Source: Cornus controversa (taxonomy: Eukaryota > Streptophyta > Magnoliopsida > Cornales > Cornaceae). From it: 64,000 nucleotides of DNA. The translations under genes and the position numbers were made by a program. Position 1 is the first letter of the stretch, and every line of letters starts with the position of its first letter. The notes beneath the pieces are model-generated. The model was not told the origin of the DNA. It was given only the letters and a program-made list of their open reading frames with translations, and did no database searches. The stretch lies in assembly GCA_026545225.1 (NCBI GenBank), contig CM048848.1, forward strand, positions 15,232,853 to 15,296,852, given 5' to 3'. Below, piece after piece: positions 24,612 to 59,045 of this stretch.

Positions 24612-27065
24612 TGTCACGCCTTTATTTCCAACTCCCAGAAGCTGAGGGTGATTAAGTCACAATTCTACACTCCTAATCACAATTACTCTTTGATATCACG
24701 CCATCATACCAAAACTGTCACGCCCCAATTTTCGAGTTCCGGATACTGAGGGTGAACCCATCCATTAAGCCCTAATGAACCCTCTTAACCTCTCAAATAC
24801 CACAGAAGCTTAACCCTACATACGCAATTATGTAAGCATATATTCCTCACCATTCTCCCCAATGGGCCCCACATTAATCCAAGTATGCATATCCGACCTA
24901 GTGTGGACTACAAGTTTTCGCACAATCGAAACTCTAGTTTCGCACAATTGAAAACATAGCTTCGCACAATCAAAATTCTCGATCATTCAAAGTGCTTGCA
25001 AAGTACTATCGAGACCCTGCTGGAATTTAGGCCTACTTTTATCAAAATTTTTGCTACAAGCTCACATAATCGAATGAGGTTTCGATCATGCAAAAAGCCT
25101 ATTTCGCACAATTGAAATGCCCCTCTATAGAATTCCTACAACTTCACACTTTGTTTATTTTTGGCTCAAATCTCACTCTAACAACCTAGAGTCAATTATA
25201 CAACATTGCAATCATCCACAAATGTTATATTATCATACACATACTCCAAATCATACATTTGAATCACTATGATCTCACAATCCTCATGCATTTACATCAA
25301 AATCATACATGTCATTGCATATATTCACCATATCCATAATCTAACCTCATTGTTTATACATACAAGGTCCAAATGAATTTACAAGTTACACAATGTTTAT
25401 CTGTAACTACAATCTCACAAAAATTCACATGCCACAAGCCGACATGGATAGCATATACATAGTCCATACATAATATCCAAATTATCCCAAAATGTTCCTA
25501 TGAGCTCCATTCGACTCATCAAGTCATTTTCATCCTCGGTGCCTTACCTATAAAAATGTTTGGGAGAGTGGGGTGAGCATATAACTATGCCCAACAGGAA
25601 TGCCCCAACCCACCTAGGCATCGACCCGACACCGACCTACATGATATGTATGTCACTACACTACATGGCATATACAATGCTCTCATGCCAACCAACACAA
25701 TGCAACTCAAGAAGGAATGCATTTAACTTGTATATCATGCTTAACAGTCTACACACATGAGCAACAAGATATATACACTTGGACATCTCCGACGATCATG
25801 TGACCCTTGGACATCTCCGATAACACCTGTATGACTTGGACAACTCCGAAGGATCATACTTTGTGGTTATTTTCACCATTTCAAATACATGGTAGGGCAT
25901 CTCCGACTTCCATGCATTACATACTTGGGTTGTACTCCGATATACACTTCTGTGCACATTAGGCACATATATCACAAAACATGTATTTTTTTGCTTCTCA
26001 ATGCACACACTTGCTATATAAATTCTAGCATGCATTACATCACCACATACATACCACATATAGCCACATATATGTCACAAGATATGCATGTCATCCTCAT
26101 ATGCATACAATTCACAACCTAGCATATATCATTCATGCTTGCATAATGCACATACTTGCTATGTTAATCTAGCATGCATTCAATACTCACATACCTATAT
26201 GCTTACAACTATGCACAAAAATCACATCTTAGCTAGACATGCTCTCATATTACACATAATGCATCACATATATCACAATATGAATCTTCCTAGCATGTAT
26301 AACCACATTATTAGAGGGAAAGATAAAACCACCAAACCTTAACATATTCATACACATGCTAACTCAAAATATACCTCCCTAAATCCACCAAAACCGTAGA
26401 ATCGATAACTAAGAGTGAAGAAACACCTCTACCTAAAAAATGAAGGCTTTCCAAGCACTTTTCAAGATTTTCACCAAGTTCCACCTTGTCAAAACTTGAG
26501 TTTGTTTGGTCTAAACCGAAGCCCTTGCTAAGCTCTACAAGTTATCTTTCTTCAGTAACTCCCGAATCATGCCTTAAGGCTTCCGAAATGAAAAGAGAAT
26601 GAAGAGGGAGATAGAGAGAGAGCTACGGCCGGTTGTTGGGTCAAGAGAGAATGAGAGAATCTCTGCATATAGATATTTAAAATATCTAGGGGTGTAAAAT
26701 GACTGAAATGCCCCCAGGCCATTTAACGTACCCTCCCAACCTCCGTTTTCGATTTCAAAAGCTCCTACAACTCCGAAATTGCTTCTTTAACTCTTTAAAC
26801 ATTTCATTTGGTCATTTGCCACATGGTCGCAACCATGCCACTCATAAATCGCTCTCCATCTATGGGAGTTACTGCCGATGCTCCTTCATGAGCTCTACGA
26901 GGTGGCATCTTGCTATATTGATAACAAGAAGACACTTTAAAACCCAAACATGAATATCATTATCCAATTCTATTCATGCACACTCACAACATGCTAAGTT
27001 ACTTCATAAATAGCATATAATATAAACACATAAGCACATAAACACATTTTACGTAATATGTACTT
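24612..27065 (-). mobile_element. Long LTR (copy A) of a chromovirus-type element
   Basis: The + strand left edge is TGTCACGCC (GGCGTGACA on the - strand). The outer 104 bp are duplicated (TGTCACGCC again at 24716). Blocks near 26690 (AAAATGACTGAAATGC, TTAACGTACCC) align with 29310 in copy B and, inverted, with the + strand Tekay LTR near 33780. The right edge is estimated from copy B. Four TTTCG-CACAAT-CGAAA-like words lie at 24916-25118. Non-coding. Confidence 0.7.
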
Positions 27066-27153
27066 AGCTTCGAATCTAGGATCATAACCTTAAGTTCGTA
27101 ATTCTACGTGTGGTTCAACCTCACCCCTCGTCCAAAGGTATTCAAACCCGGTT
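27066..27153 (-). other. Remnant of retroelement 5' leader
   Basis: About 90 bp whose reverse complement (CTTTGGACGAGGGGTGAGGT) matches the Tekay leader at 29920-29950. All other internal sequence is gone. Confidence 0.55.
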
Positions 27154-27166
27154 GCTCTGATACCAA
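27154..27166 (-). other. Primer-binding site, - strand element
   Basis: GCTCTGATACCAA on +, i.e. TTGGTATCAGAGC on -, two bases inside LTR copy B. Matches initiator tRNA-Met. Confidence 0.75.
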
Positions 27167-27168
27167 GT

Positions 27169-29678
27169 TTTCACACCCTGATTTTTCATTTTTCAAAAAC
27201 CAAGGGTAATTTAGCTACTCATCCATTTTCTTAATCATAATTACTCTTGATATCATGCTTTGATACCAAGTTGTCACGCCCCGATTTCTATTTTTCAAAA
27301 CCGAGGGTGATTAAGCTAATCATTCACATCACTAATCTCACCCCAATGGGACCCACATTGGTTTACATATCACTACGTACTCTTCCTCACCCTATGTTAT
27401 GTGAAATTCCAATTCAGCCCTATTTCGGCCAGCTGGAACCCTCTTCGATCCACTGAAACTTGGGCTCAGCTGACCTTCAGGTTCCCAGCTCTATCGGTCG
27501 GCTGTAAGGTAGCTTCGGTCAGCCGAAAAGGAGCTTTCAGCCAGATGAAGCCTTCCTTCAGCCATCCGAAACAGGTACCCTATTTACAAATGTTCGAGAT
27601 CTCACACTTTCAGTCGGTTGCTGCAGAGCCTAGTTGAACGAAAGTTCAAAAATGCTCCAAAACTTGACTTTCACAAGTCTAACTGCATTTCCTATGATCA
27701 TACATCCATTTACAATCCTAAACATGAATAAAACTCATACAAATCTGTGCATTTGAGCCTCATAAAATGCAAGTCAAAATATTCTCCAATTCTCATTCAT
27801 AACCTACATTATCCTTGAAACAAACATCCAATAATGATCTATAGAACACCTATCATGGTAAGGATATACAATTCTCGTCTCTAACATTCATTCCTACAAT
27901 TTCATACATAAGAAGTTCAAAAGATTCATCATTCATACATCTTCCACAAGTTATACATGTAGGAGTTCATAAAACATATATTTCCCAAAAGTTCTAACCA
28001 TGCCATATGTGACATTTACATTTGAAATTCGAATACATGTAAGGAACCAAATGTAAAAGCAACACTACAACTATAGTCGGCATGCCACAAACCAGCATGG
28101 ACCTCTATACACATATGTCCCAAAATAATCCAAAAGAAGCTCAATTCCACTTTAATGCTCTATGCCTCGTCCTCTATGGGAGCTTTATCTGAAAAGAGTT
28201 TGGGAGAAGGGGGTAAGCATACAACTACATCCAGTAGGAATGATCAACCCGACCCTACCTCAACTCAAGCAGCCATGTATGAATACATATGAAGTGTCTA
28301 CATGACTAAATGACAAGTATCCATGTTTTTCACACTTAAAACATACATGTTTTAGAAATCATGAATGATGCTTCATATTTCAATAAAAAAGTAATTTATA
28401 TGAAGTCACAACTCACAAGTAAACTCACACCACGTATAATCGAAAATCAATTCAACTAAGGACTTCAGCTTGTCACATTTATAGTAAGGGTCATTTTGGG
28501 ACCACATACTCCGCTTACGCTTTACGGGTTGCTAACCCGACGGAAGCGACATTCGCTTGGCCAAGTTTTGGGTCTTGCACCTTAGGGTTCAAAGCCCTTA
28601 TTAATTCTCACACATACCCCAAAAATACGATTTTCTCACATAAGTGCACATTGTCACATAATACACCAAACCTCAATATTCTTATAATTTTCACCAAATG
28701 CATAGCATTTACAAGGTCAATGCATTTCAATTCTCAACTCATGCATATTCAATGCATTTAAATCATCTCATGGAAATCACAATCCTTATGCATTTTCACA
28801 AAAATGTTCTTCTATGCATATTCTCCACATATGAAATCAATTCTCACAAAACTCTTCAAATGAACACAAAATCATAATATTGCATTCATAGACATCAACT
28901 ACACATATGCAATATATAAATTTCAACTAAAACGTGGTAGACATTCAATATATATACAAGAGGGTCATACTTTTACAAAATTCTCAAAACAAAGTTTCAT
29001 GTTACAAGTATGTGACCTATAGAATCAAAATAGGGAAGAGATTCACACCCCTACCTCGAATCTCAAGCTCGTCCTAGAAAGTCTCAAATTCCAGCCCTTT
29101 CTATATTGCCAAAAAATATTTTTGTTTGGTTCAAACCGAAACCCTTGCCGAGTAGAGCAAACCCTTTACCTCGGGCGATTCCCGATTCAAAGCCTAACAC
29201 CTCCGAAATGTAGAGAGAAGGGAGAGAGATGAAATGGGAGATTTAGAGAGAGTGATATTGCTATAAAATTGATAATAACTCAGCCCCTCTAGATATTTAT
29301 ATCTCCTTGGGGCGCAAAATGACTGAAACGCCCTGAGTCACTTAACGTACCCTTCCGACCTCCATTTTTTATTTTGAAAGTTCCTACGATCTCGAAATCA
29401 CTTCTTTAGCACTCTAAATATTTCATTTGATTCATAACCAAAAATCATATTTTCTAAAAAAAAATTCGGATTCCAGGGCCCACTGGACCACGTCCCGGAG
29501 CCCCGTTGACCCAAAAAGTCAAACTTCTCCAAATATTCTCAAAAAATTTCAAAACCTTAATATCACTCCCCAAACATGTTTTCCATAATTAAAACATGCT
29601 AAACATCATTTAAAATGCAATTAGGGCAAAAATGATGCTTAAAATAGAAATTGGTCAAAATTGGACCTGGTCTCTATA
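27169..29678 (-). mobile_element. Long LTR (copy B) of a chromovirus-type element
   Basis: The - strand runs TATAGAGACC ... to GTGTGAAA beside the PBS; the terminal dinucleotides are decayed. The outer 104 bp are duplicated (TTTCACACC at 27169, TGTCACGCC at 27273). A region with TTCGG...CCGAA words lies at 27423-27620, and a shared block sits at 28528 (GGGTTGCTAACCCGACGG). Identity to copy A is only moderate by eye, so the two are old or belong to different subfamilies. ORFs inside are spurious. Confidence 0.7.
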
Positions 29679-33460: not shown

Positions 33461-34083
33461 TGTAGAGATCCGAATTTTTTTTCTTTTATTTATTTATTTT
33501 TTGAAATAGGATTATAAATTGATTTGCATATGTTTTAAATGTAATTTACTTATGTGGGGACTTATTTAGAGGTCCGGAAAGTTTTGTGAGCCACTTGGCT
33601 CATTTTAAAATTTTAGGTTGTCGGGACCCGGGACTGGGATTGGGTGGGCCTGAAAATCCAGATATTTTTTTTAAAAAATATTATTTTTGGTTATAGACCA
33701 ATTAGAATATTAAGATAGACATAGAGTTGATTTCAAGGCCATAGCTACATTTGGATTTGAAAACGGAGTTTGGGAAGGTACGTTAAGTGATTAGGGGCGA
33801 TTTGGTCATTTTACGGCCAAGGGCTTATAAATATTTGGGAGACAGATATTTATAGCAAATTTCTCTCTCTAAAATTCTGTAAATCTCTCCTCTCTTCCCA
33901 CACAAGCCCTCATGATTCTCTCTAAGATTCTGAGCCCTTAAGGCTTGATTCAGAAGGTGCCAGTGAAGGAAAGTTCGTTCTACGTGGTGAGGGCGTCATT
34001 TTGAATTGAACAAAGCTAGGTTTGGGTGGATTTGGATTTGGTGGATTTGAAGTCTAGCTTGAGTTTTCATCTCTTGAGGTAGG
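33461..34083 (+). mobile_element. Tekay-like 3' LTR, left part (continues at 55856)
   Basis: Starts TGTAGAGATCC after the polypurine tract and contains CTTATAAATATTTGG (TATA-like, 33826). It is interrupted at GAGGTAGG by element 1; the LTR resumes with GGTGTG at 55856. The inverted copy B has the matching uninterrupted GAGGTAGGGGTGTG. Confidence 0.8.
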
Positions 34084-35458
34084 TGACTCATGGCTAAGTG
34101 TATCAATTAAATTACCACTTCGCAATAGAACGAATTCTTTGTAGAATAGGGCTATCGAAAGGGGTGTCAAACCTCTGGGACTGTGGTCTGACTGAGTTGG
34201 GTGTCCGAAATTAATTCTAATTAGATTTAAGAGAAAAGAATGCTAATTTTTATATTCTAATTCAACAAATAAAATAATTAAATAAATGCAAAAGAACTAT
34301 AGAGTGTAGAAAGTATGAGATAAATTTAGGATTATTGACTTTACCACTAACTTCAGAATCAATGGCCAATTGAACTAACTGTGGGGAATTATACCATGCA
34401 TAAGTGGTGTCAGTGGCTACAAGCTCACCTCCATCCGTTAAGAAGATAACATATGATTAAGGCTAAGTCATGGACTATCTTCGATTGGCATGGGCCATCT
34501 ACCTAACTACGCTACTCTAGGGTGCAATATGATCCATCTTATCTAGGCATAATCCATCAAAACTTTTAATGATATATTCAATGATTACCATTGTATAATA
34601 ATCACTCTTATAATCACAGAAAACAAGAGAGATTGAGTTCAATAACAATAATAAAGTATTTAAGACAAGATAAGAAATCATTGAAACTGAATTTGTAAGA
34701 CTTTTATTGCTTAATTCTATAAGAAGAATCCTCTAAATTACACAATCTATGCATGACTACAAAAATTTCTAATAATTAGAACAATCAAACCATTGATTCT
34801 TAGTTAGGGCTACATCAAAACCCTAGTGGATGAACTAGTTGCTTATGGTGCAAGTTGCTATTCAAAAGTCTCCTCAATACAGCCCCCAATGTGTCACATT
34901 AAACCCCAAGAAAATATGAAGTGTCCCCACCTAATTAGGAGACAATTAGGGTTTTCCCGTAGGCCCTAATCAGGTGGGTTTTCCTACTAACTTTCAGCCT
35001 AAAGTTTGACCCACTAGAAGTCCGATTAACGAAATTTACATGAAATACAAAAGTGTCCATAATTGAATTTGGTTCAACCCACTTGCGAATTAGGCCAATT
35101 TGACACTCAAAAATAAGAGTTATGGGCTATTTTCCAAAATAGTATTAAAACTGTATTATGTGCAGAATTGGATTTTAGCCCGAAATACCCTTAAGCAGTT
35201 ATAATTCTCTTGGACCTCTTCCTTAGGCTATTTTGAGTTGATACATAGAGTTAAATTGATCCACTTGATGTAGGCTTCATATAACCTTCTTGGATATCAT
35301 CTTTAAAAGCTCAAAATCATGGTTTTAACTGAAATAATCATTAAGGCCCTGAAAATACATAAAACACCAAAACGAAATAAAATCAAAAATAGACTATTTC
35401 TAAGAGAATAAAATATGCAAATTAAGAGGTTAGAATGCGTAACATTCAACGCCGATCA
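34084..35458 (-). repeat. Element 1, 3' LTR
   Basis: 1375 bp, the partner of 54627-55850. Compared with the partner it lacks about 100 bp near 34850, but keeps about 330 bp that the partner has lost. Confidence 0.85.
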
Positions 35459-35473
35459 CACCCCAAAACTTAC
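35459..35473 (-). other. Element 1 polypurine tract
   Basis: On the - strand GTAAGTTTTGGGGTG, directly before the 3' LTR start TGATCGGCG. Confidence 0.7.
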
Positions 35474-37068
35474 ATATTGAAAGTCTCTTAGCAATAGAAT
35501 AAAATAAAACTAAAACAAAGAAAACTAACTAAACACTAACTAAAGTACCCAACTCCTCTTTCATCAGAGAAGCAATTGCATTTAGCATATGCAACAAGAC
35601 TTTGAACCCCTAGGTTACCCCTAGTGGATGAGTTATAGTCTAGTGAGGGTTTCCAGAAATATTACCCATAAACATTCAAAATTTCTGCTTAAATATTAAT
35701 CAAGAAAGAAGATTACAATAGATAGTTATAGACTTGCATTCAAGAATAATTTCAAATATTCAAATTCCATAATTCAAAGCAATGGTCCCCATGCATAATT
35801 CCCATCAACACATCTCAAAGTAGCCAGTCCTGATTCCCTCATGAAAAGTAAACTAGCAATCATCTCATGTGGCATAACCTAGCCCCAAATATATTAAGTC
35901 ACATACCCCTTCAACTCACTAGCTCCCTTTATTGAACTCATACTTCCAAACATGAATACATGACTTTCTTTCTTTTTTTTCTTTTTTTTTCATTGATTTA
36001 TTGGTTGTGCAATGTCTTGGTCTATTAAGCTCTCTGGAAGATCTATGTAGCAAGCTTTCAGTTAGTGACTCCCAAACCAGATGGCTTTAGGGCACTAGGT
36101 GTTAAGACACCCCAAAGAACCTAATAACTCAAATCAGTCAGGCTACAAACCAAGACAACCAATGCTTATCTTTTCTCACCCTTCACTTTTTGAGGCGAAC
36201 ACTCAATGCTTACTAAAGCAAGAGGCCCGTTTACTTCGTGAAAAAGGATCAAATTGATTTGCTATTAATCACATATATATTTTTTTTCTTCTTTTTTTTC
36301 ATTGAAGTCAAGTAAAATAAATCATCGGTACTCATTCTCAAGGGATACTAATTACTATCAAGTATATGTAACTCAACAACTCAGAGCCAAAGTTTATACC
36401 CCACAAGATTATGTTAGTGTGCCTATGCATATGAGGAAACTAAAACCAATCACACTAAAACATATCGATGCAAATAATGATTAAAACCACTAGATTCAAA
36501 CCACAGTTTTCAAAAATTTAAACATACCCAAGAATTGTAATTCAAGCAACTACATAAAGTACTAATCCCTTGAATAATGTAAAAACATCCTATCTAAAAA
36601 CAAAACAAAAGAAAATAACAAAAAAACTATGAAAACAAAATAAACAACAAGTTCTAAAATAAGAAGAATTTCGTAAAAATTTTCCCCCATTGAAATAAAG
36701 CATATAAAAAGGCATCGCCTCACCCCAAACTTAAATTGTACATTGTCCTCAATGTACACCCAATAAAAGTATAAAGAATGGTTAGAACGATATTACCATG
36801 ACCATGGAGTAGTGGCAAGAAAATAGCATAAATCAGTAGCATCAAGGCAATGAAGCCATTCCCCCAAACTTGGATGTTACAACCTGTCAAAATAAACCAC
36901 TACACCCCAACGACCAAGTGAAATAATATGGTTGAAAATAAACATGAAATAGAAAAAGTAAAACAATTTTTTTTTTAAATTGAATATATAAAAATATGAA
37001 AAATTAAATAAAGAAAAGAAAAAATAAAAATAAAACTAAAAATACAAAAGATTGTAACCACCAGAAAA
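35474..37068 (-). other. Element 1 non-coding tail
   Basis: About 1.6 kb between the accessory ORF and the polypurine tract. The matching stretch of element 2 (51111-52708) shares it in order, including GAATGAGTACCGATGA and GCCTAGTGCCCTAAAGCC words. No ORF. Confidence 0.6.
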
Positions 37069-38691: not shown

Positions 38692-38702
38692 CCTTTATAT
38701 AG
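38692..38702 (-). promoter_or_regulatory. TATA-like box before the element 1 accessory ORF
   Basis: On the - strand TATATAAAGGG, about 400 bp upstream of the accessory ATG and just downstream of the palindromic-word cluster. Element 2 has the same arrangement at 49468-49478. Confidence 0.5.
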
Positions 38703-38734
38703 GCATTTAGATTTTTGGATCAACCCTTATTGGG

Positions 38735-38930
38735 CCCAGGCGATCGATCCCCCTCATGGCTGGGTAATCGATTGCCCAACTGATGGTTTTTTTCATAAAA
38801 TTCCTCTTGGGCGCAAAGAGGCGATCGGTCGCCCATCTTGATGGTCCTTAGGCATCAATCACCCAAGGTCGACTGAATGGAGTAAAATTGAGCTAGTGAT
38901 TGCCCAAGGTCGACCGAGATATCTCTTTTT
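38735..38930. repeat. Palindromic-word cluster in the element 1 spacer
   Basis: AGGCG-ATCGAT-CCCCC (38738), GGGTA-ATCGAT-TGCCC (38762), AGGCG-ATCGGT-CGCCC (38819), then two CCCAAGGTCGAC words (near 38861 and 38908). All look like decayed forms of GGGCG-ATCGAT-CGCCC. Confidence 0.7.
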
Positions 38931-41582: not shown

Positions 41583-41599
41583 TTGTTATGGCAGCATTA

Positions 41600-44703: not shown

Positions 44704-44825
44704 TTATCTATTTGATTGATTGGATTTTACAGAATTAATTTTAATTAGATTTTTAGTTTAGGAAATTTTTATATTTTGTTTTTAATTTTGTTTTTGTTTT
44801 CTTTTCAGGTACTTTTCGTTAATAT

Positions 44826-46460
44826 ATGCAAGGTCGTCGTTCTGTGGCTGATCCTTTGATACATCTTGATCCTAAGCCTAAACGTACTCTCAGACAACAG
44901 AGGAACATCCCTGTTGATACCATTGTGCAAGGGGAAGAATTCATTGAAGACATGGCAGAAGAAAGGAATAACAACCTTGTTCCTAATGCAGTTGGAGAAA
45001 GGGCTAGATTGCTCAAGAATTACTATGTTCCTGAGACATACACTTCACCAGTCGATTTTCAACTGCCTAATGTCACAGCACAGAATTATGAGATTGAGTC
45101 CAGCATTATTCAGATGCTACCATCCTATTTTGGGCTAACTCAAGAGCACCCTTACAAGCATCTAGATGAATTCATTAAAGTGTGCTCAACTACTAAAATT
45201 TACAACTTCTTTGAAGATGCTTTCAGAATGAGACTTTTTCCATTCTCCCTGAAAGATAAAGCAAAGTATTGGTTCAATTCTCTACCGGCAAATTCTATCA
45301 CGACTTGGACTCAAATGCAACAAGAGTTCCTTAAAAAGTATTTTCCGATAGGGAAGACCAATCAGTTCAGACGTGTTATCACTGGTTTCTCCCAATATGA
45401 GAGGGAACAATTTTATGAGACATGGAAAAGATTCAAGGACCTTCTTAGGAAGTGTCCTCATCATCAAATTCCTAAGTGGAAACTAGTACAGAGTTTTCAT
45501 AAAGGGCTGACAGAAGCCAACAGACAGATGGTTTATGCGTCTTGTGGAGGTATTTTTATGTTGAAGAGTGAAGAAGAGGCATGGACCTTATTTGAAAATC
45601 TTAGTGACAACTCTCTACAACATGTATCCTCTACTCGTTCTAGCAGACCTACCACTACAAGGAAGACTGATGGAATTTTTGAGTTTGGTGCTTCAAAAGC
45701 TATGCCAACTGACATTGACTTAATTGCACAGAAGGTAGCAGCAATTATGGCTGCCAATCAAGCTCCTTCTACTTCAAATTCTTCATTGCTAGGCCCTTAT
45801 GAATTTTTCTCTAGTCCTATGCATAATGTGAACAATTGTCCTTCAATTGGGCAATTTTCTGATGTTCAACATGAGCAAGTCCAAGCTGCATTCACTGGAC
45901 CAACGAATCCTCCACGAGGTAATACTTACAATCCTACATGGATGAATCATCCTGATTTTTCTCACAGTAACCAAGGGGCAGCAATGCAACCATCATATCA
46001 ACCTAGGAATTTTGTACCTCAACAGCAAGATCAAACACAAGTTCCTATGGCACAAAGAATTTCTGCTATTAAAGACAAGCTAACACTCACCTTAGCAAAA
46101 TTTGATAAACTCGATTCCATTATAGAGATAGTTCAAGCTACTGTAGCAACAGTACAATCTACAGTTCAGCTAGTACACTCTCATTCTCAATCTATTGCCA
46201 AACTGGAATCTCAATTTGGACAGCTTGCTAATTCATTGAGTAGAAGAGAAGAAGGGAAGCTCCCTAGTCAACCAGTTGCTAATCCAAGAGGGATGCAAGC
46301 TTCCACAAGCAACCCACACCATGAGCAGGTTCAAGCTATTACCACTTTGAGGAGTGAGAAAATAATTGATAATAAGGTGGGGGAAAAGAAAGAAGAAGAA
46401 AAAGTGACCACAAGTCCAAGTGCTGAAAATTCTTATGAGCCCAAGGCTCCTTTCCCATAA
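44826..46460 (+). CDS. Element 2 gag
   Basis: 544 codons open from MQGRRSVADP. Residues about 95-215 are the retrotransposon gag core (FRMRLFPFSLKDKAKYWF, TWTQMQQEFLKKYFP, ETWKRFKDLLRKCPHH). Near residue 324 the zinc knuckle kept by element 1 reads PYEFFSSPMHNVNNC: both leading Cys are replaced, so nucleic-acid binding is probably lost. A Gln-rich region and a coiled segment (KLDSIIEIVQ ... KLESQFGQLANSLS) follow. It ends at a TAA where element 1 has a Gln codon, a C-to-T change; in the family gag and pol form one frame. Role: particle formation. Confidence 0.85.
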   Translation: MQGRRSVADPLIHLDPKPKRTLRQQRNIPVDTIVQGEEFIEDMAEERNNNLVPNAVGERARLLKNYYVPETYTSPVDFQLPNVTAQNYEIESSIIQMLPSYFGLTQEHPYKHLDEFIKVCSTTKIYNFFEDAFRMRLFPFSLKDKAKYWFNSLPANSITTWTQMQQEFLKKYFPIGKTNQFRRVITGFSQYEREQFYETWKRFKDLLRKCPHHQIPKWKLVQSFHKGLTEANRQMVYASCGGIFMLKSEEEAWTLFENLSDNSLQHVSSTRSSRPTTTRKTDGIFEFGASKAMPTDIDLIAQKVAAIMAANQAPSTSNSSLLGPYEFFSSPMHNVNNCPSIGQFSDVQHEQVQAAFTGPTNPPRGNTYNPTWMNHPDFSHSNQGAAMQPSYQPRNFVPQQQDQTQVPMAQRISAIKDKLTLTLAKFDKLDSIIEIVQATVATVQSTVQLVHSHSQSIAKLESQFGQLANSLSRREEGKLPSQPVANPRGMQASTSNPHHEQVQAITTLRSEKIIDNKVGEKKEEEKVTTSPSAENSYEPKAPFP

Positions 46461-47198
46461 CGTTTCCTTGAAGCATCTTAATTGGGGAAGCAAGGGGACA
46501 AGCTGCATGACATGATGGAAGTATTTTGACAAGTGAAGATTAATTTGCCACTCCTTGATGCCATCAAGTAAATTCCTCCTTATGCTAAATTTTTGAAGGA
46601 CTTGTGCACTCAAAAGAGGCGTTCTAAAAGTCATGTGCCAAAGAAAGTGATGCTGCCACAACAAGTGAGTTCTATAATTCAGTAGTGCACTCCTCCCAAG
46701 TACAAAGATCCTGGTGCTCCAACTATCTCATGCATCATTGGGGAGCACCATGTGGATAAAGCTCTTCTTGATTTGGGTGCAAGTGTGAATTTGCTACCCT
46801 ATTCAGTTTACTTACAATTGGGCTTGGGAGAATTGAAACCTACCTCGGTGGTGTTGCAATTTACAGACAGATCAACAAAGCAACCTCGTGGGATCATTGA
46901 AGATGTGCTCATTAAAGTGGACAAGTTCTACTTTTCAGTTGATTTTTTTGTACTTGATATTGAGCCAGTTCACAACCCAATGAGGCACATTCCAGTTTTC
47001 CTTTGTCGACCTTTCTTGGCTACTGCTGATGTTTGCATAAATTGTAGGTCAGGGATTATGGATATTTCATTTGGTAACATGAATGTCAAGCTTAATGTTT
47101 TCAATGCTATCCATCACTCTCCAGACCAGAGTGATGTGTTCTTCATGGATCATATTGATGAATGTGTAGAGGAATTTGTTTCATCCTCTATATCTTGA
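46461..47198 (+). pseudogene. Element 2 gag end and aspartic protease
   Basis: After several stops the frame 46752-47198 gives ALLDLGASVNLLPYSVY with the catalytic DLGAS motif, then STKQPRGIIEDVLIKVDKFY and MRHIPVFLCRPFLATA. The protease core looks sound, but upstream stops (at CAA/CGA-type codons) separate it from gag. Confidence 0.8.
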
Positions 47199-47204
47199 AA
47201 CTCC

Positions 47205-47480
47205 GTGGAGGTATGTAAGTCTCTTTGTGATTATGAGACAATTTATGAAGAAGAGTTGTGCGAAGAGGTAAATTCTATGCTGGAAGTGGATGCTATTCAG
47301 AATACTCCACTGTGGAGAATTTCAGTCGAGCCACTCCCTTCTCTCTCTAGCACTCCCCAAGTGCCTTCATTAGAGTTCCCTCGGCAATTAGAGTTGAAGC
47401 CTTTGCCTGACAAGTTGAAGTATGTATTTTTGGGGGCACATAATACTCTTCCTATTATCATTGCCTCTGATTTGACATAA
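47205..47480 (+). pseudogene. Element 2 protease-RT linker
   Basis: Acidic and proline-rich, with IQNTPLWRISVEPLPSLSS and LELKPLPDKLKYVFLG, the usual end of the linker before RT. Confidence 0.7.
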
Positions 47481-47489
47481 ACTCAAGAG

Positions 47490-48533
47490 AAGTGCTTATT
47501 AGAGGTCTTATATTAACATCGTAAAGTAATCGGGTGGAGTGTAGCTGATCTTAAGGGTATTGATCCTTCAATTTGCATACACAAAATCCATCTGGAAGAA
47601 TGATGTAAGCCGTCTAGAGAGGCACAAAGGTAACTGAATCCCAACATGAAGGAGGTAGTGAAGAAAGAGGTTGTCAAGTTACTTGATGCAGGTATAATTT
47701 ATTCGATTTCTGACAGCACATAGGTGAGTCCAACGCAAGTTGTTCCTAAGAAGTCTGGTCTTACTATTGTTCCCAACTCTGTGGGAGAGCTTGTTCAACA
47801 ACGTACTACCATAGGTTGGCGTGTTTGCATTGACTACAGGAAGCTCAACTCTATGACAAGGAAAGATCACTTCCCTCTCCCATTCATTGATCAAATACTT
47901 GAAAGGTTAGCTGGTCAGAGCTATTATTGCTTTTTGGATGGTTACTCTGGTTATAACCAAGTGGCTATGGATCCAGAAGATCAAGAAAAGACTACTTTCA
48001 CATGTCCCTTTGGTGCTTTTGTTTATCGTCGTATGCCATTTGGGTTATGTAATGCTCCGGTGACATTCCAGAGGTGTATGATGGCCATCTTTTTTGACAT
48101 GGTGGAAAAATTCTTGGAGGTATTCATGGATGACTTCTCTGTTTTTGGATCATCCTTTGAAGACTGTCTGAGCAATTTATCACTTGTATTTCAAAGGTGC
48201 CAAAAATTAAATTTGGTACTTAGTTGGGAGAAGAGCCATTTCATGGTGAAGGAGGGTATTGTGTTAGGGCATATTGTTTTAGAGAGAGGCATTGAAGTTG
48301 ATAAAGCAAAGATCGACCTGATTGCTACTCTGCCTCCTCCAACTTCGGTGAAGCAAGTTCTTTCTTTCTTAGGCCATGCTGGGTTCTATAGACGATTCAT
48401 CAAGGACTTCAGTAAAATTGCTCGGCCTTTGTGCCACTTGTTATCTAAAGATGTTCCCTTTTCCTTTGATGAAGAGTGTGTGCAAGCTTTTGAAAAGCTT
48501 CGGTCTTTATTATCTTCTGCACCGATCATGTAA
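47490..48533 (+). pseudogene. Element 2 reverse transcriptase
   Basis: The open stretch 47724-48533 covers TQVVPKKSGLTIVPNS, WRVCIDYRKLNSMTRKDHFP, the YCFLDGYSGYNQ motif, TCPFGAFVYRRMPFGLCNAP, catalytic VFMDDFSVFG, and FLGHAGFYRRFIKDFSKIA. All RT motifs are present. Upstream codons (47490-47723) hold stops, and a TAG-type break lies at 48532 before RNase H. Role: cDNA synthesis. Confidence 0.85.
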
Positions 48534-48539
48534 TCTCTG

Positions 48540-49091
48540 AAATGGGCTCTACCTTTTGAAATCATGTGTGATGCTTCTGATTATACAGTAGGAGCAGTGT
48601 TGGGACAAAGAGAAGAGAAACGATCATATGTCATCTATTACGCTAGTAAGACTCTCTCTGATGCCCAACTTAATTATACAACCACAGAGAAAGATCTTCT
48701 AGTTGTAGTATTTGCCCTGGACAAGTTTCATTCCTATTTATTGGGGTCCAAGGTGGTTATCTACTCTGATCATGCGGCATTGAGACACTTATTGGCCAAG
48801 AAAGAAACCAAACCGCGCCTTATTCGATGGATTTTATTGTTACAAGAATTCAATTTGGAGATCAAAGATAAGAAGGGGACAGAGAATATAGTTGCGGATC
48901 ATTTATCCCAGATTGTGTCTGAGCCTGTGTTCGATGCATTACCTATTGGTGACTCATTTCCAGATGAACAATTGTTTGAAATTTTTGATGAAAAAGTTAA
49001 TGGACAAAGGTTGAAGCATTGTGTAGAAGGATTTGTGCCAACAAGAGATGTGGAGTCTGTTGACTTGACGGATCCCATCTATCCGACTTAA
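48540..49091 (+). CDS. Element 2 RNase H fused to an integrase C-terminal tail
   Basis: RNase H acidic residues sit in [40 protein letters not shown] and NIVADHLSQ. The frame then runs without a break from [10 protein letters not shown] into [14 protein letters not shown] ... [13 protein letters not shown], the end of a gypsy integrase. No HHCC zinc finger and no D,D-35-E core lie between, so about 1 kb is missing in frame. Element 1 has the same join region. The element could not integrate on its own. Confidence 0.82.
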
Positions 49092-49336
49092 TCCCTTCGG
49101 AGAGTTGATCGTCGCCTACGGACGTTAAATTGTAGGATTTGTATATATTTCTATCCTTTGATATTTTTAATTTTCTTTGATTTTAATTTTTAGTTTAAGT
49201 TTACTTAATTTTTCTTTCAATTCTAATTGTGTTTTGATGTGTTTTCTTTGAGTTTTTGATGTATAAGTTGCTTTTGGAGGATGCCAAGAGGTGTACCGAG
49301 ATCTTTGGACTCAAGACAGGTGAAAAAATGAGCTCT

Positions 49337-49440
49337 CGGTCAACCTTGGGCGATAGAGACTCCAAAAATACACGTTTCGGTCGAGCTTGGGTGATGGAGG
49401 CTCAAACAGGCATCAATAGGGGGGATCGATCGCCCAGTGA
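49337..49440. repeat. Palindromic-word cluster in the element 2 spacer
   Basis: Words CGGTCAACCTTGGGCGAT, CGGTCGAGCTTGGGTGAT and GGGGG-ATCGAT-CGCCC (49420-49435). Same word family as 38735-38930. Confidence 0.7.
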
Positions 49441-49467
49441 AGAAAAGTGGCTGGCTGAAATTTTTGC

Positions 49468-49478
49468 TTTATATATAG
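49468..49478 (+). promoter_or_regulatory. TATA-like box before the element 2 accessory ORF
   Basis: CTTTATATATAG about 410 bp upstream of the ATG at 49887. Its placement matches element 1, supporting a separate transcript for the accessory ORF. Confidence 0.5.
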
Positions 49479-49886
49479 CCCCGCTCTCTCATCTACTTGC
49501 TACTACTTGTTTATTTGAAGACTTTGTGATCCAATTTGACTTCTACATCAATCGAGAATATATTTTCTTTAATTGGTGATTCTCATACAAGTATTAATCA
49601 GTGATCATCATCAACATCAACATCAAAACCAGATTGATCATCACTAGTTCTCAAGAAAACTCTTACTTTCTCAAGTTCTTCATCAAAGTAAGTAGAGTTT
49701 TTATTTTGCAAAATTGTGTCAATCTTTTTGAGGGCTTTTGAAGACCAAGTTTGGGGGACATAATTGGTGGTGTGAATTATTCAATTTGGGGTAAAAAAAT
49801 TACCGAAAGAAGAGGTTGAAGGAGAAACTTTTATTGTACACACCAAGTGTTTGATTTAATTCCTCAACCAAGCTTTTTCTATTTCT

Positions 49887-51110
49887 ATGGCACCAAAGAG
49901 AGCAAGTCACCAAGGTGCTTCAAGCTCATGCAATCCTCGCCGAGCACGACATGATCCAACACCCGTTTCCTCAAGATCTCGCCGAGATAGAATTCATGAG
50001 AGATAGAATCCAAGAGCCTTGAATTTTGAAGCGACGTTCGACATCGCTGAACTATATGCCATGTTTCCCGAGACACGATGGGGAATTTCTGACATCCATC
50101 GTCGTCAGTCGTCATCAATTTTTGTTCCATTATCTACTACTATATACCCGAGGCTCGTCAAGGTCTTTTATCAGAACTTAATGCCAAAACCTGATGAGCG
50201 GGGTGTGCTTATTTCTTCGGTGGATGGAACACGAGTTCAGGTTGATATGTCTTCGATTGCTATTGCCATAGGTTGTCCTCATGAATGCTTGACTGATTTG
50301 ACCAATATCTACACTCCTTTACTCGATGATTTGTCGATGGGTAATTTGGTGGCACGATTGTGTGCTAACCAATTCTCTGGGCCTAAGCGTAATGTAGCTT
50401 CAAAGTCTTCTACACCGAGTCATCTATGGTTCCTTGATGCCATTTTGTACAAGAATGTGTGTCCCATTGGACATAAAATCGAGAGACGTCAAGATTTCAT
50501 TAGAGCTTTATATGCCACACATTTTGGGCATTGGCTATCATTCCTACAGATTGTCTAGGGCCAAATTGAAAAGTTCTATTCAAAGGTTGTTGCCAAGGCA
50601 CTGGATAGTGCAAGTGACTGGAAGTTTCCATTCCCTACTATCATTCATCAGTTACTCATTGCACAAGGATATGCAGTCGATGAGGACGAGCTTGCCTTTC
50701 CACGAGATATTCACTATAGCACACATGACTGGAATTTGAGCCGATCTCATATGCATCAAAGAGTCATTGTTGCGCCAGGTGAAGTATCTCGATTGGCTCA
50801 GGGAGGGGAAGCTGTAGACATACCACCACCGGTGGAGGATCCAGAGGAGATGGAAGCAGAAGCAGAGGATGTCCATGCACAAGCTGGTGGACATGATTAT
50901 CATTATTTAGAGGGGCAGATTGCTAGGTTGACCGCCCAGTTTGGCACCTTACAGACTGAGGTTTCTACATAGTTTGGAGCTATGCGGACATAGATGGCGG
51001 ATCACTTTCGTGAGACTCGCCAGGATCAGCTAGAGATGAGGAGGATGTTGCATGCTTTGATACGCCAAGCGAACTTTGATCCCGACGCTTAGTCACCACC
51101 ACATCCTTGA
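49887..51110 (+). pseudogene. Element 2 accessory ORF ('putative plant transposon protein' type)
   Basis: Opens MAPKRASHQGASSS and is closed early by a TAG near 50004. The open stretch 50019-50558 has FDIAELYAMFPETRWG, TIYPRLVKVFYQNLMPKP, VDMSSIAIAIGCPHEC, DDLSMGNLVARLCANQFSG and LWFLDAILYKNVCPIGHK. It continues after another TAG to FPRDIHYSTHDWN, an acidic linker and a coiled-coil-like end (LEGQIARLTAQFGTLQTEV, LEMRRMLHALIRQ). The stops look like C-to-T changes at Gln codons. Function unknown; it is kept in both elements while integrase is not. Confidence 0.72.
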
Positions 51111-52708
51111 TTGGAGGTAACTATCTTTTGTATTTTATTTTATTTTTTATTTTTTTATTATTTTTATTTTTATTTGTTCTTTCTGTATAAATTCAATTTC
51201 AAAAAATATATATATATATTTGTTTTTTTTCCTATTTTATATTAATTTTCACCCATGCTATTTCACTTGATTGGTGGGGTATAGTGGTTTGTTTTGACAG
51301 GTTGTAACATCCAAGTTTGGGGGTGTGCTTGCATTGCCTTCATGCTACTGGTTTGTTTTATTTTCTTGCTACTACTTCTCTAGATTCCTGGTACTATCGT
51401 TCTTACTCTTCTCTATGCTTCAATTGGGTGTACATTGAGGATAATGTACAGTTTAAGTTCGAGGGTGAGGCGATGCCTTTTTATGTGCTTTATTGCAATA
51501 TGGGGGAAATTTTTGTGAAATTCTTCTTGTTTTAGGATTTTTGTTTATTTTATTTTCTTAGTTTGTTTATTTTATTTTCTTTTGTTTTGTTTTTATATAA
51601 AATGTTTTTACATTATTCAAGGGATTAATACTTTATGTAGGTGTGTAACTTATAATTCTTGAGTATGTTTTAAATTTTTGAAAACTATGGTTTAAATTAA
51701 GTGGTTTTAATCATGGTTTGCATTGACATGCCTTGGGGTGATTGGTTTTAGTTTCCTCACATGCACAGACACACTAGCATAATTTTGTGAGGTATAAACT
51801 TTGGCTCTGAATTATTGTGTTACATATGCTTGATATTAATTAGTATCTCTTGAGAATGAGTACCGATGATGTGTTTTACTTGACTTCAATATAGAAAAAA
51901 AAAAGAATGTGATGAATAAGCAAATCAATTTGATCCTTTTCATGAGTAACCGGGCCTCTATGCCTCAGGAAGCATGGAGTGTTCGCGTCAAAAGTGAAAG
52001 GGTGAGAAAAGATGAGCATTGGTTGTCTTGATTTGTAGCCTGACTGATTAGAGTAATTAGGTTCTTCGGAGTGTCTTAACGCCTAGTGCCCTAAAGCCAT
52101 CTGGTTTGGGAGTCACTGACTGAAAGCTTGCTACATGGATCTTTCAGAAAGCTTAATAGATCAAGACATTGCACAACTAATAAAGCAATGAAAAAAAGAG
52201 AATGAAAAAAAAATGAAAAAGTCATTATTCATGTTTGGAAGTATGATTTCAATAAGGGGAACTAGTGAGTTGAAGGGGTATGTGCCTTAATATATTTGGA
52301 GTTGGGTTATGCTACATGAGGTGACTGCTAGTTCACTTTTCACGAAGAAACCAGAGTTGGTTATTTTGAGATATGTTGATGTGAATTATGCATGAGGACC
52401 ATTGCTTTGAATTATGGAATTTGAAATTTTGAAATTATTCTTAAATACAAGTTTGTAACTATATATTGTAATCTTCTTCTTGGATTAATGTTGAAACAAA
52501 ATTTTGAATGTTTGTGGGTATCGTTTCTGGAAACCCTCACGAGACTATATTCGTCCACTAGGGAGAACCTAGGGATTTAAAGGCTTGTTGCATATGCTAA
52601 ATGCAATCGTTTCTGCCACGAAAGTGGAGTTGGGTAGTTTAGTTAGTGTTTATTAGTTTCCTTTGTTTTAGTTTTATTTTATTCTATTGCTAAGGGACTA
52701 GCAATATG
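51111..52708 (+). other. Element 2 non-coding tail
   Basis: About 1.6 kb with no ORF, collinear with 35474-37068 of element 1. T-rich near 51130-51240. Confidence 0.6.
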
Positions 52709-52720
52709 TAAGTTTGGGGG
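52709..52720 (+). other. Element 2 polypurine tract
   Basis: TAAGTTTGGGGG, two bases before the 3' LTR. Confidence 0.7.
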
Positions 52721-52722
52721 TG

Positions 52723-54621: not shown

Positions 54622-54626
54622 AAAAT

Positions 54627-55850: not shown

Positions 55851-55855
55851 GTAGG

Positions 55856-57659
55856 GGGTGTGTTGTGTCTTTCAATACAAGCTCTATTTTATCTTAATGC
55901 ATAAAATGTGATGATTTTTATATCTTTCTCTATGAATAGAAATGGTTGAATTGTGATTTAGAATGTAAGAATTGTTTATATATGCCATATGTGATACATG
56001 TTTACATATATAAGGTTTAGGTGACATTTTCATTGATGAAATGTTATATGTTCTAACCTAAGTTCAATATAAATTGATTTTTTTATGTGTTAGTGTTGGT
56101 TCCTTGCGTGACATGCTAGAGATGAGTCTAGGAAATGAATTGGGTGCTATTGCATCTAGGACTTGTGTATGTTTGTGTTAAACCTTGATATGTTTGGTAC
56201 GTGTGTGGGGTGATATCTCGGGAATGTCTCATGACAAAGTAGACTGGGAACATATCCTCGGGGGTTGAATGACCTCAAACTTGCGCAAGATGGTTGGTTG
56301 CCTCATGGGTTAGTAGCCCATAATAACCAAGAACTTGAGGTAGGGGGTTTCGGCATATATCTTGTTTGTGTGTGTGGGTGTGAGTACAATTTCGAGAGCA
56401 ATGTGATTTTGTGTTGGTTTTATGTTCGAATTGGTTAGTGTGATTATTGTCATATTGTTACATGTGGATGAGAATGTGAAATGATATATGTGTAAATTGA
56501 GCATTTATGAATTATCATGTATTGTGATGCATGTGTCTTGTGAATGATAAAAATTGTGGCGTTTGACTAAAATGCTAAGAAGTATGACACAGCTAGTTTA
56601 TGTATATGTGTGACGTTATGTATTATCATGAAATGTGAGACTTGGGTGGATTGCACAACATGTGACCTTGAGCCCGTCAAAATTACTCATCCCCCTACAT
56701 TAACACTTTTAGGGCATGGTAAGAAGGTTGTTAATGGTGAGCAACTGTGAGTTGGACTTAGAGTTAGGAGAACTCTTTTTTGGGTTATATTTGGTGTTAT
56801 GCACGTCCGGAATGTGGACATGGTGCACTTAAAAATGTATAAAGAGACATAGGCTTTTGAAACATTATATATAGGCGTTTGTGCCTTAAGTTATGGATTT
56901 GCACTTAATGTATATGAATCAAGCATGTTTATGTATGAATGTTGTTTTTATGATTCGGTCAATGTTCATGCATGCTAAGGATGTTACGAAGATGATGATT
57001 AAGTTTTAAGAATGCATGTATATGATGATTGGTGGGATTAGTTCAAATTTGGACCAATGTGTAGCTTTTGAGCACTTAGAGAATTCTCAATCGAAGGATT
57101 TCAATGCATCACAATCCTCATTACGATGTATCATAATTATATACATCGTAAAGTCTGTAGCGATTGAGTAGAAAAAAGTATTTTTCGCAGGATGTAACAA
57201 TACATCTGTGATGCATCGTAGATGTATCGTAATATATAGCTGGGTTGAGGACTAAAGTAGTGTTTGGACATGTATGTGTGGTCATGTGTGATACCCATGG
57301 AGACAAGTTGTTGTAGAATTGTGCATATGTAATAATGTGTACATAATAATTTTCTGCGATGTTGATGAGAGTAAGAACGGTCTATTAGGACACAGTGGAC
57401 GGACTCACCCTTGAGTTCTCGTATCATTTTGGGTAAGGGGATTTGGGCGTGACATCACGGTATTAGAGCATGTTTAGTGATGACATGTGGCACGGAGTGA
57501 ACTGTTCACCTCCATTTTTTATATCTACTTAGGTATCAGAAATTGGGACATAACAACAATGGTATTAGAGCATAATAAAGGACACGATGTGTTGATGTTC
57601 TACATTCTCACCCTTGAGTTCTTGTATCGTTATGGGTACGGGAATTTGAGGTGTGACAT
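55856..57659 (+). mobile_element. Tekay-like 3' LTR, right part
   Basis: Continues GAGGTAGG|GGTGTG from 34083. The first LTR end is GGGCGTGACA at 57455, followed by a PBS-like ACGGTATTAGAGC (57459). A second PBS-like TGGTATTAGAGC lies near 57558, and a further end GGTGTGACA at 57659, so the end unit of about 100 bp is present about three times. Palindromic TTACG-ATGTAT-CGTAA-like words lie at 57121-57236. ORFs inside are spurious. Confidence 0.7.
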
Positions 57660-59045
57660 GTATGTATACATTTTTTTCCAAAATTCTTGTTTAAAGAGCC
57701 AATCCAAAATGATGCATTATAGGGCCCTAGGTTTTGGCCTATAATATATGTTTGTGTGTTACGCAATTATGCAAGAGTCTCTACTCTCTTCCTAAGAGAT
57801 GTTGCCAGATGGATCCTGATATTTACAATATAACATTCACCATTTTTCAGACGTGGGGTCATGACACCCGTAGTCTACTAGTGTGGTAGCTCGTCTAATG
57901 CCTCGCACCCACCCACATCACACATGCCCATAGAGGTCATCACAATCCATCCCTCTAGAGGACCAACATCCCAATCAACCCACAAATCATAATACACCCC
58001 CTTGTAACACCCCACCCTACCCGACACAATATTGTTAGCTTTTGAGAACTTAGAGAATTCTCAGTTGAAGGATTTCGATGCATTGTAATCCTCATTATGA
58101 TGCACCATAATTATATACATCGTAAAGTCTGTAGCGAGGGATCGTAATAAGGTTAAGAAGATTGAGTAGAAAACAACACTTTTCACAGGATGTAACGATA
58201 CATCTGCGATACATCATAATATCCATTACGATGTATCGTAATATATAGCTGGGTTGAGGACTAAAGTAGTGTTTAGACATGTATGTGTGGTCATGTGTGG
58301 GACCCATGGAGACAAGTTATTGTAGAATTGTGCATATGTAATAATGTGTACATGATGATTTTTCGCGATGTTGATGAGAGTAAGAACGGTACATTAGGAC
58401 ACAGTAGACGGACTCACCCTTAAGTTCTCATATCATTTTAGATAAGGGGATTTGGGCGTGACATCATGGTATTAAAGTATGTTTAGTGATGACATGTGGC
58501 ACGGAGTGAACTGTTCACATCCATTTCCTATATCGACTTGGGTATCAAAAATTGGGATATGACAACAATGGGATTAGAGCATAATAAAGGACACGATGTG
58601 TTGATGTTCTGCATTCTCTCCCTTGAGTTCTTGTATCGTTATGGTACAGGAATTCGAGGCATGACATGTATGTAAACATTTTTTTCCAAAATTTTTGTTT
58701 AAAAAGCCAATCCAAAATGATGCATTGTAGGGCCCTAGGTTTTGGCCTATGATATATGTTTGTGTGTTACGCAATTATGCAAGAGTCTCTACTCTCTTCC
58801 TAAGAGATGTTGCCAGATGGATCCTGATATTTACAATATAACATTCACCATTTTTCAAACGTGGGGTCATGACACCCGTAGTCTGCTAGTGTGGTAGCTC
58901 GTCCAGTGCCTCGCACCCACCCACATCACACATGCCCATAGAGGTCATCACAATCCACCCCTCTAGAGGCCCAACATACCTATCTACCCACAAAAGTCAT
59001 CACAATACACCCCCTTGTAACGCCCCACCCCACCCGACACAATAT
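57063..59045 (+). repeat. Tandem duplication, period 974 bp
   Basis: Copy 1 starts at 57063 and copy 2 at 58037, both with AGCTTTTGAG-ACTTAGAGAA. They stay collinear through the LTR end, the AAAGAGCCAATCCAAAATGA block (57694, 58701) and the CACCCACCCACATCACACAT stretch up to CCGACACAATATTGTT. The LTR end and Cassandra-type fragments were thus duplicated together. Confidence 0.88.

Follow-up and report, generated by a model that had tools for sequence, protein, structure and literature searches.

Arrays of 16-bp palindromic words in Tekay-like and Athila-like retrotransposons of Cornus controversa as candidate sites for dimeric DNA-binding proteins

Analysis of a 64-kb stretch of Cornus controversa DNA (the window), together with the 771.7-Mb assembly that contains it, revealed arrays of 16-bp palindromic words in two groups of long terminal repeat (LTR) retrotransposons, one Tekay-like and one Athila-like. 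With a probability of roughly 0.7, and judging from the sequence, we read these words as putative binding sites of dimeric DNA-binding proteins, arrayed as a regulatory module. The initial annotation of the window had proposed dimeric sites that keep their shape while their letters diverge from family to family. This proposal is well supported by the sequence, because the frame recurs, a 6-bp core (N6) is selective, the spacing is kept between unrelated spacers, and the two arms match.

All five words named in the initial annotation are present at their coordinates. They belong to three Tekay-like LTR clusters, called LTR A, LTR B and the Tekay-type LTR at 57–58 kb, and to two Athila-like elements, elements 1 and 2, as follows:

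24717..25117, minus strand: 3' part of LTR A (Tekay-like) with its word cluster; LTR 3' end at 24717
24916..24931, no strand assigned: LTR A word TTTCGCACAATCGAAA, exact
24938..24953, no strand assigned: LTR A word copy, 1 mismatch, 22 bp on from 24916
24960..24975, no strand assigned: LTR A word copy, 2 mismatches, 22 bp on from 24938
25060..25075, no strand assigned: weak LTR A word copy, 5 mismatches
25080..25095, no strand assigned: LTR A word copy in the opposite orientation, 3 mismatches
25102..25117, no strand assigned: LTR A word copy, 1 mismatch, 22 bp from 25080
27423..27571, minus strand: LTR B word cluster, sites at 27423, 27443, 27492, 27513, 27535 and 27556
27513-27528: LTR B word CTTCGGTCAGCCGAAA; LTR 3' end GGGGCGTGACA at 27276
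57099..57232, plus strand: Tekay-type LTR cluster, first copy, words at 57099, 57121 and 57217
58073..58241, plus strand: Tekay-type LTR cluster, duplicated copy, words at 58073, 58095, 58132, 58204 and 58226
38738..38834, minus strand: element 1 words of the GGGCGATCGATCGCCC type at 38738, 38762 and 38819
38858..38918, minus strand: element 1 composite sites (CTCGGTCGACCTTGGGC..) at 38858 and 38899
38694..38702, minus strand: element 1 TATA box, 35 bp beyond the last word
49335..49395, plus strand: element 2 composite sites at 49335 and 49376
49420..49435, plus strand: element 2 word GGGGGATCGATCGCCC, single copy in the window
49470..49478, plus strand: element 2 TATA box TATATATAG, 34 bp beyond the word

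The decayed copies claimed for the LTR A word and the relatives claimed for the LTR B word were recovered as listed, and the Tekay word at 58226 recurs at 57121 with 1 mismatch. These last two words sit in duplicated copies, because the Tekay-type LTR end, approximately 1 kb long, is tandemly duplicated at 57062-59056 (89% identity over 1022 bp). In element 1, the word at 38819 recurs at 38738 with 2 mismatches and, more weakly, at 38762. The statement that each cluster repeats its own word does not hold for element 2, whose word has one occurrence in the window. The arms are perfectly palindromic in the words at 24916 and 58226 and imperfectly so in the other three named words, and the rule that CG always stands at both inner arm edges fails in element 2 and in the LTR families with TTTCAG..CTGAAA and TTTGAG..CTCAAA words. 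The window has approximately 36% GC and an observed/expected CpG ratio of 0.44. The clusters are CpG-dense: they have 4.0–6.3 CpG per 100 bp, and the LTRs or internal regions containing them have 1.55–2.03.

Seven settings were tried when the window was scanned blindly. The sharpest one, which asked for 16-mers pairing in 4 or 5 of the 5 arm positions and having three or more relatives with 4 or fewer mismatches in 150 bp, low-complexity words dropped, picked exactly three places, namely the LTR A, LTR B and Tekay-type clusters (first seeds 24938, 27513 and 58226). Shuffled sequence, named in the initial annotation as a possible refutation, gave a mean of 0.28 and a maximum of 3 places over 60 local dinucleotide shuffles. 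Looser settings admitted many AT-rich places and gave a smaller excess over shuffles (e.g. 12 places vs 8.2), and the word clusters of elements 1 and 2 were picked by none of the seven settings. When no palindrome was demanded, the named words or their close relatives came out as the top 16-mer in LTR A and in element 1 and as the top 14-mer in LTR B, with 5 of 8 (LTR A), 6 of 8 (element 1) and 5 of 7 (LTR B) positions pairing, against approximately 2 on average. The top 16-mer of LTR B in that scan was a shifted frame, and element 2 yielded a 41-bp direct repeat instead of its word.

Genome-wide counts revealed that core length is selective. TTTCG-N6-CGAAA occurs at 16,878 sites and TTTCG-N5-CGAAA at 503, so that the N6 core is more than 30 times commoner; the reversed controls gave 629 and 766 sites, respectively, and the N5 count is the fairer control because the reversed N6 control has GC where the pattern has CG. 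Exact genome matches numbered 805 + 849 for the LTR A word, 197 + 217 for the Tekay word TTACGATGTATCGTAA and 1,550 for GGGCGATCGATCGCCC, with controls of 0 in each case, although such counts reflect abundance and nothing more, because every 16-mer in an abundant element will recur. The centre was pyrimidine-purine (Y-R) in 116 of 129 distinct words and, by eye, in 50 of 51 listed TTTCG-N6-CGAAA sites (51 of the 16,878, from the start of one contig). Because the centre is mostly Y-R, 7 + YR + 7 (7 + 2 + 7) is a better frame than the 5 + 6 + 5 initially described. The array words include TTTCGATTAATCGAAA, TTTCAGGCGGCTGAAA, TTTGAGGCGCCTCAAA and GGGCGATCGATCGCCC. Half-sites differ by family (TTTCGAT, TTTCGCA, TTTCAG, TTTGAG, TTACGAT, TTTCGG and GGGCGAT) and are commonly uniform, most sites in one array having the same one. 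The LTR A word (24916-25117; also in the genome copies L024, L031 and L047, L-numbers denoting copies fetched from the genome) is asymmetric, with half-sites TTTCGCA and TTTCGAT (half-sites tallied at up to 4 mismatches), and in this it resembles a heterodimer site made from two half-sites.

A handle consisting of the Tekay LTR 3' end and primer site gave 593 + 677 genome matches (control 0). Sixty Tekay-like 5' LTR ends were taken from the first 100 listed of these 1,270 matches, all on contig C1 and with most tandem neighbours skipped, and 3 kb upstream of the handle was fetched for each; BLAST placed the 60 LTRs in 21 families. A cluster of 16-mer words was detected in the last 900 bp of 26 of the 60, whereas 20 shuffle rounds gave a mean of 0.30 per 60. 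Spacing was evaluated in a set of 29 LTRs, comprising 26 from the genome and 3 from the window; L040 and L041 had been dropped (other motif or AT-rich), while L043 and L049 had been added with the Athila word as seed. Among 156 gaps of up to 60 bp, 76 were exactly 22 bp, 107 were 20–23 bp and 17 were 49 bp. The 16 representative LTRs (one from each family, two for additional word sets and two from the window) gave 40 of 81 short gaps at exactly 22 bp, 54 at 20–23 bp and 7 at 48–51 bp, with at least one 22-bp gap in 14 LTRs. The layout 22-22-22-49-22 recurs with variations despite different words (L020, L028, L063 and L021). Tekay-like arrays sit roughly 150–800 bp before the LTR 3' end, and clean arrays are present in elements whose LTRs are 99.92% identical (L019 and L020). 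In the 26 word-bearing genome LTRs, CpG per 100 bp reached 5.61 in the cluster and 9.07 inside the words, compared with 1.97 in the spacers and 1.81 in the rest of the LTR end.

Comparison of sites within one LTR showed an identity of 0.60–0.89 over the 16 positions, a value inflated by site selection, and of approximately 0.30 from 3 bp outside, a value that the choice of sites does not affect; mismatches per bp were 0.60 in the flanks and 0.24 in the words. Because identity drops to chance 3 bp outside the word, the sites are discrete and do not form a minisatellite. These data bear on mutational homogenisation, by which tandem duplication, gene conversion or template switching by reverse transcriptase (RT) would make and repair palindromes without selection. 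Template switching can copy one arm onto the other, the words within one array are alike, and 22-bp tandem copies exist, forming an array at 24916-24976 in Tandem Repeats Finder. Tandem duplication would, however, copy the spacers, which within an LTR are unrelated although their lengths are kept; a spacer copied together with its word was not the pattern found, and the array at 24916-24976 is a local exception at best. Homogenisation also fits poorly with the rarity of the N5 core and with words that are much more conserved than flanks across diverged Athila copies (see below). We regard this explanation as disfavoured and most improbable.

The initial annotation suggested testing whether substitutions in one arm are matched in the other, and differences in one arm were indeed paired by the other arm. 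Five sampled LTRs, alignable over hundreds of bases, differ in their words, which are TTTCAG..CTGAAA in L020 and L028, TTTGAG..CTCAAA in L063 and GGCGATCGATC in L043 and L049. A second handle, just upstream of the cluster, gave 179 + 178 matches (control 0), and 26 copies were added from 100 listed of these 357. As we read the results, the lineage of 31 copies comprises 10 C-type, 7 G-type and 12 Q-type copies, L091 with a fourth word, and L085, which is broken up; the script defaults were 11, 7 and 13, with L085 (lacking sites and interrupted by other sequence) and L091 defaulting into classes C and Q. In the C- and G-type copies, positions 4/13 read C..G in 41 cases, G..C in 28, C..C in 11 and G..G in 10 (Fisher p 1.2e-6, a guide only, because the copies are related). 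Homologous sites of L020 and L063, compared by eye, differed in both arms in a matched manner in four of six cases, in one arm in one case and in neither in one. Across the 129 distinct words (identical words counted once, positions −800 to −150, window Tekay LTR excluded), 534 Watson-Crick pairs were formed, compared with a mean of 437 and a maximum of 464 in 500 column shuffles. At the sequence level, one Tekay-like lineage holds three main word sets on alignable flanks, two of which differ by matched arm changes.

Matched two-arm differences are also compatible with RNA hairpins, the other option raised in the initial annotation, under which the words would be transcript stem-loops (for packaging, dimerisation or as small-RNA precursors) kept by RNA pairing. 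The likely LTR promoter is upstream of the Tekay words, which would thus be transcribed, all 14 folded segments had negative z-scores, the lowest being −4.3 (Tekay, sense) and −3.3 (LTR A, antisense), and palindromic clusters of maize Sireviruses draw excess small RNAs according to the accessible text of PMC10760457. However, the z-scores ranged from −0.2 to −4.3 with no strand consistently favoured and do not separate RNA from DNA. G-T mispairs were exactly as frequent as A-C mispairs in the 129 distinct words (64 each), in a weak test that post-insertion decay would blur. A hairpin needs neither a Y-R centre nor a 22-bp spacing, and the Athila words lie upstream of an internal TATA box. With equal mispairs and mixed folding scores, the hairpin option received no support, and we consider it quite improbable.

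The Athila-like arrays were collected with a handle at the RNase H end, which gave 16 genome matches including elements 1 and 2. The composite site CTCGGTCGACCTTGGGCGAT (up to 5 mismatches) was present twice in each of the 16 copies. Words at up to 3 mismatches numbered 1–4 per copy: element 2 had one and the other 15 copies had 2–4, with 3–4 in 13 of the 14 relatives fetched besides elements 1 and 2 and two in the remaining one. The 3-mismatch recount was used because six word matches at 4 mismatches overlap or adjoin composites. Spacing was 23-49-23 in most copies. In elements 1 and 2, as in their relatives, the cluster comes after the RNase H end; in element 2 it precedes an accessory gene. 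A TATA box lies 31–35 bp past the last word in 14 of the 16 copies and 20 bp past it in L096, while L099 had no match to the TATA pattern beyond its last word.

All 20 sampled GGGCGATCGATCGCCC sites (of 1,550) were Athila by best match. These 20 copies were compared for conservation after removal of the seed word from each; 7 of the 190 pairs (flank identity below 0.5) fell outside the bins. The 96 pairs with flanks at 50–70% showed identities of 0.605 in flanks, 0.953 in words, 0.924 in composites and 0.512 in spacers. In the 15 pairs with flanks at 70–85%, words reached 0.985 but composites no more than 0.700; the composite is thus conserved less steadily than the word. The 72 closest pairs showed 0.897 in flanks, 0.958 in words, 0.968 in composites and 0.766 in spacers. 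Athila words outlast their surroundings.

The 20-base composite CTCGGTCGACCTTGGGCGAT was found exactly in 9 of the 16 Athila copies and also in six Q-type Tekay-like LTRs (L043, L049, L075, L109, L110 and L112). A comparison of 20 Athila stretches with the Tekay-like LTRs gave no match at E 1e-8, that is, no wider homology in the stretches compared. The presence of the composite in both lineages could reflect exchange by recombination or convergence on one putative binding protein; recombination between Athila families is reported in Arabidopsis in the accessible part of PMC2410132.

We infer protein binding, a dimer state, and a transcriptional or anti-silencing effect from these patterns. 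Under the dimeric-site reading, sites at approximately two helical turns (22–23 bp), together with the recurrent wider gap of approximately 49 bp, would form a regulatory module along which dimeric proteins bind to a single face of the helix. In Athila-like elements, the module would be the upstream region of an internal promoter driving the accessory gene. LTR B has a likely TATA box, assigned by pattern and by eye, approximately 2,030 bp from the LTR 3' end, and its words lie at 163–296 bp; because the likely TATA box is far upstream of the words, the module in Tekay-like LTRs may act as a downstream enhancer or anti-silencing region. The differing words point to a set of putative binding proteins with different specificities. 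More tentatively, fast-diversifying dimeric proteins may read Ty3/gypsy elements, with Athila and Tekay sharing one grammar (7-YR-7, 22–23 bp, approximately 49-bp gap), concerted two-arm switching at most sites and one composite, CTCGGTCGACCTTGGGCGAT; we hold this wider proposal to be possible, with the odds somewhat against it. If it were true, families would compete for or borrow one another's activators.

The source of such proteins was considered with respect to the VANC anti-silencing proteins of VANDAL elements, a parallel drawn in the initial annotation. On this model, every family would encode an anti-silencing protein specific for the words of that family, in the manner of VANC. In its favour, the words are family-specific and CpG-dense, and a long accessory gene lies directly downstream of the Athila array and TATA box. 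In L133, this gene has an open frame of 409 codons. Its protein matched Transposase_32 at E 5.9e-10, under the gathering score, and had no PDB match by sequence, and so carries no recognised DNA-binding domain. Two Tekay-like elements, L069 and L070, whose LTRs are 99.92% identical over approximately 2.5 kb, show only gag-pol: L070 has a full-length gag-pol frame of 1,537 codons, and L069 has a frame of 1,454 codons with an in-frame stop near the pol end, followed by 94 codons. Over most of their internal regions, as read, neither has a sense frame of at least 110 codons outside gag-pol (frames below 90 codons were not listed). This argues against a simple VANC analogue, and an element-encoded binder is unlikely as a general explanation. 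The parallel is weaker than the dimeric-site idea itself. It covers the family-specific motifs, and Athila has a gene beside its array that might encode a binder; it breaks down at the palindromic form, the unrelated spacers and the gag-pol-only Tekay-like elements. For Tekay, a host-encoded binder is more likely than an element-encoded one, and the binder of elements such as L069 and L070 would probably be a host protein or come from another element.

Several results weigh against the dimeric-site reading. Under the loose scan, upstream segments of the 60 LTRs also cluster, in 17 and 26 cases compared with 26 in the last 900 bp. The clustered words of these upstream parts are mostly AT-rich or long-period, and at a score of at least 12 the counts become 5 and 2 upstream and 20 in the last 900 bp; because the loose scan also clusters upstream, the argument relies on high scores, spacing, core-length counts and conservation. 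In the largest sampled family, 19 of 20 members, along with several small families, lack an array of 16-bp words, L040 being the single match. The Tekay word, TTACGAT-GT-ATCGTAA, has a purine-pyrimidine centre and breaks the Y-R rule, and with no palindrome demanded it ranked only fourth among the 16-mers of its cluster, behind three shifted frames. A TATA-like match 20–60 bp past the last word was found in only 2 of the 29 Tekay-like LTRs (L014 and L036), so that the position of the array relative to the promoter is mostly unlike that in Athila. Finally, the counts are not independent, because copies of one genome are related.

Two side observations concern these same LTRs. In L014 and L036, the TATA-like match lies 30–33 bp past the last word, as in Athila. 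Members of the 20-member family (L009, L030, L034, L050 and L051) carry another palindrome, GGACAC-ten bases-GTGTCC, in two copies approximately 55–60 bp apart, mostly at −285 to −190 from the LTR 3' end, a region of the LTR that also holds words.

The host elements were characterized by Pfam matches. The two Athila-like ones are LTR elements; gag, RT and RNase H were matched in element 2, and RNase H in element 1. The coding features of element 2 are as follows:

44823-46457, plus strand: gag piece (PF03732)
47724-48530, plus strand: RT piece (PF00078)
48534-49088, plus strand: RNase H piece (PF17917)
44823..49088, plus strand: whole gag-RT-RNase H stretch
50007..50969, plus strand: accessory gene in two open pieces (50007-50555 and 50559-50969), the first Transposase_32-like

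The first accessory piece matched PF20167 at E 1.3e-5, under the gathering score. Element 2 (44823-52722) is nested inside element 1 (35400-43179) in the opposite orientation. In both elements, RNase H is followed directly by a noncoding stretch and then, in element 2, by the accessory gene; on account of the downstream Transposase_32-like gene, we take them to belong to the Athila lineage. No integrase match was seen among the scanned pieces of elements 1 and 2, which cover part of the frames, and for this reason their subfamily may be non-autonomous.

LTR A, LTR B and the 57–58 kb LTRs resemble Tekay LTRs and lead into a primer-binding site, presumably of the tRNA-Met type; on the minus strand, LTR A ends in GGGGCGTGACA followed by a degenerate primer-binding site. 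In their genome relatives, a long gag-pol frame carries a Tekay-type tail, and Tekay is the lineage name that we assume for these LTRs and their relatives. The host elements gave matches to RVT_1 and RT_RNaseH, and the Tekay-like pol of the window matched a Tf2-1-like SH3 domain. We take the domain order to mean Ty3/gypsy and not Ty1/copia. Searches with the RT of each group, Athila and Tekay-like, revealed no relative among viral contigs.

Further observations were made on the Tekay-like elements. The interval 33505-34088 is the start of a 3' LTR of a plus-strand Tekay-like element truncated by element 1 at approximately 34088, and its promoter block (approximately 33760-33900) is similar to the promoter blocks in LTR A and LTR B. 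Six primer-site handles at steps of approximately 7.7 kb occur at G000:C1:37664895-37703278, with shorter series at other places, which suggests head-to-tail Tekay arrays with common LTRs. By eye, in L009, L018 and L030 and at approximately 56700-56716 in the window, TTTTCAG/TTTTGCAG-like 3' splice signals precede the LTR end and GTAGGG-like sites follow the leader; these signals hint at an intron inside the Tekay LTR.

Among known systems, the closest is the palindromic repeated motif (RM) of Sireviruses, of which the arrays described here look like a Ty3/gypsy counterpart. According to the accessible text of PMC2829016 (Bousios et al. 2010), the RM likewise occurs in several palindromic, family-specific copies in a CpG-rich cluster, and it shares with the Athila array a position before an ENV-like gene and the TATA distance. 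The same text gives a CGG-CCG core in 12 of 13 listed motifs, whereas the words here vary and often lack it; this core is approached only by LTR B and by the composite with CGGTCGACC. A TATA box follows the RM cluster shortly, whereas most Tekay-like LTRs here have none close by, and the 16-bp frame with a Y-R centre and 22-bp phasing is not described for the RM in that text (PMC2829016). The RM belongs to Ty1/copia elements, is reported as absent from classic copia elements, and is called Sirevirus-specific among the copia elements compared (PMC2829016, accessible text), while our arrays belong to the Ty3/gypsy lineages Athila and Tekay. We found no description of an array of this kind for Ty3/gypsy in the open literature, subscription papers lying mostly outside this coverage.

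VANC targets resemble the words in being short, dense, family-specific noncoding motifs that co-evolve within the element and in having specificities that differ between related families (PMC5735166 and PMC10398659, as far as accessible). In the same sources, the VANC21 motif is nine bases long and lies in tandem repeats with a single orientation, whereas here 16-bp palindromes are separated by unrelated spacers. VANC systems also differ from the Tekay-like elements L069 and L070, in which no accessory gene was seen. In Ty1/copia elements of the Tnt1 type, family-specific short repeated LTR boxes act as regulators; these belong to another superfamily than our arrays, and we know of no comparable spacing rule for them. 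Box I of Tnt1 is mentioned in PMC2829016 (accessible text). Retand elements, in the accessible part of PMC11963269, similarly have family-specific repeats beside accessory genes downstream of pol, in the form of tandem arrays between pol and the 3' LTR. Unlike these, the Athila sites are discrete and palindromic, have diverged spacers and lie upstream of a TATA box.

Silencing and activation act on each plant retrotransposon family separately, and the basis of a family's own address has mostly yet to be explained. A common grammar with family-specific letters would provide a concrete and testable address code, one class of which has approximately 17,000 sites in this genome. If the words are bound by diversifying proteins, they would represent a plant arms race like that of VANC or of animal zinc-finger proteins. 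Compared with the accessible account of the Sirevirus RM (PMC2829016), the arrays extend a Sirevirus-type feature to two gypsy lineages; what appears to be new is Ty3/gypsy arrays with a stricter grammar and visible concerted switching of both arms.

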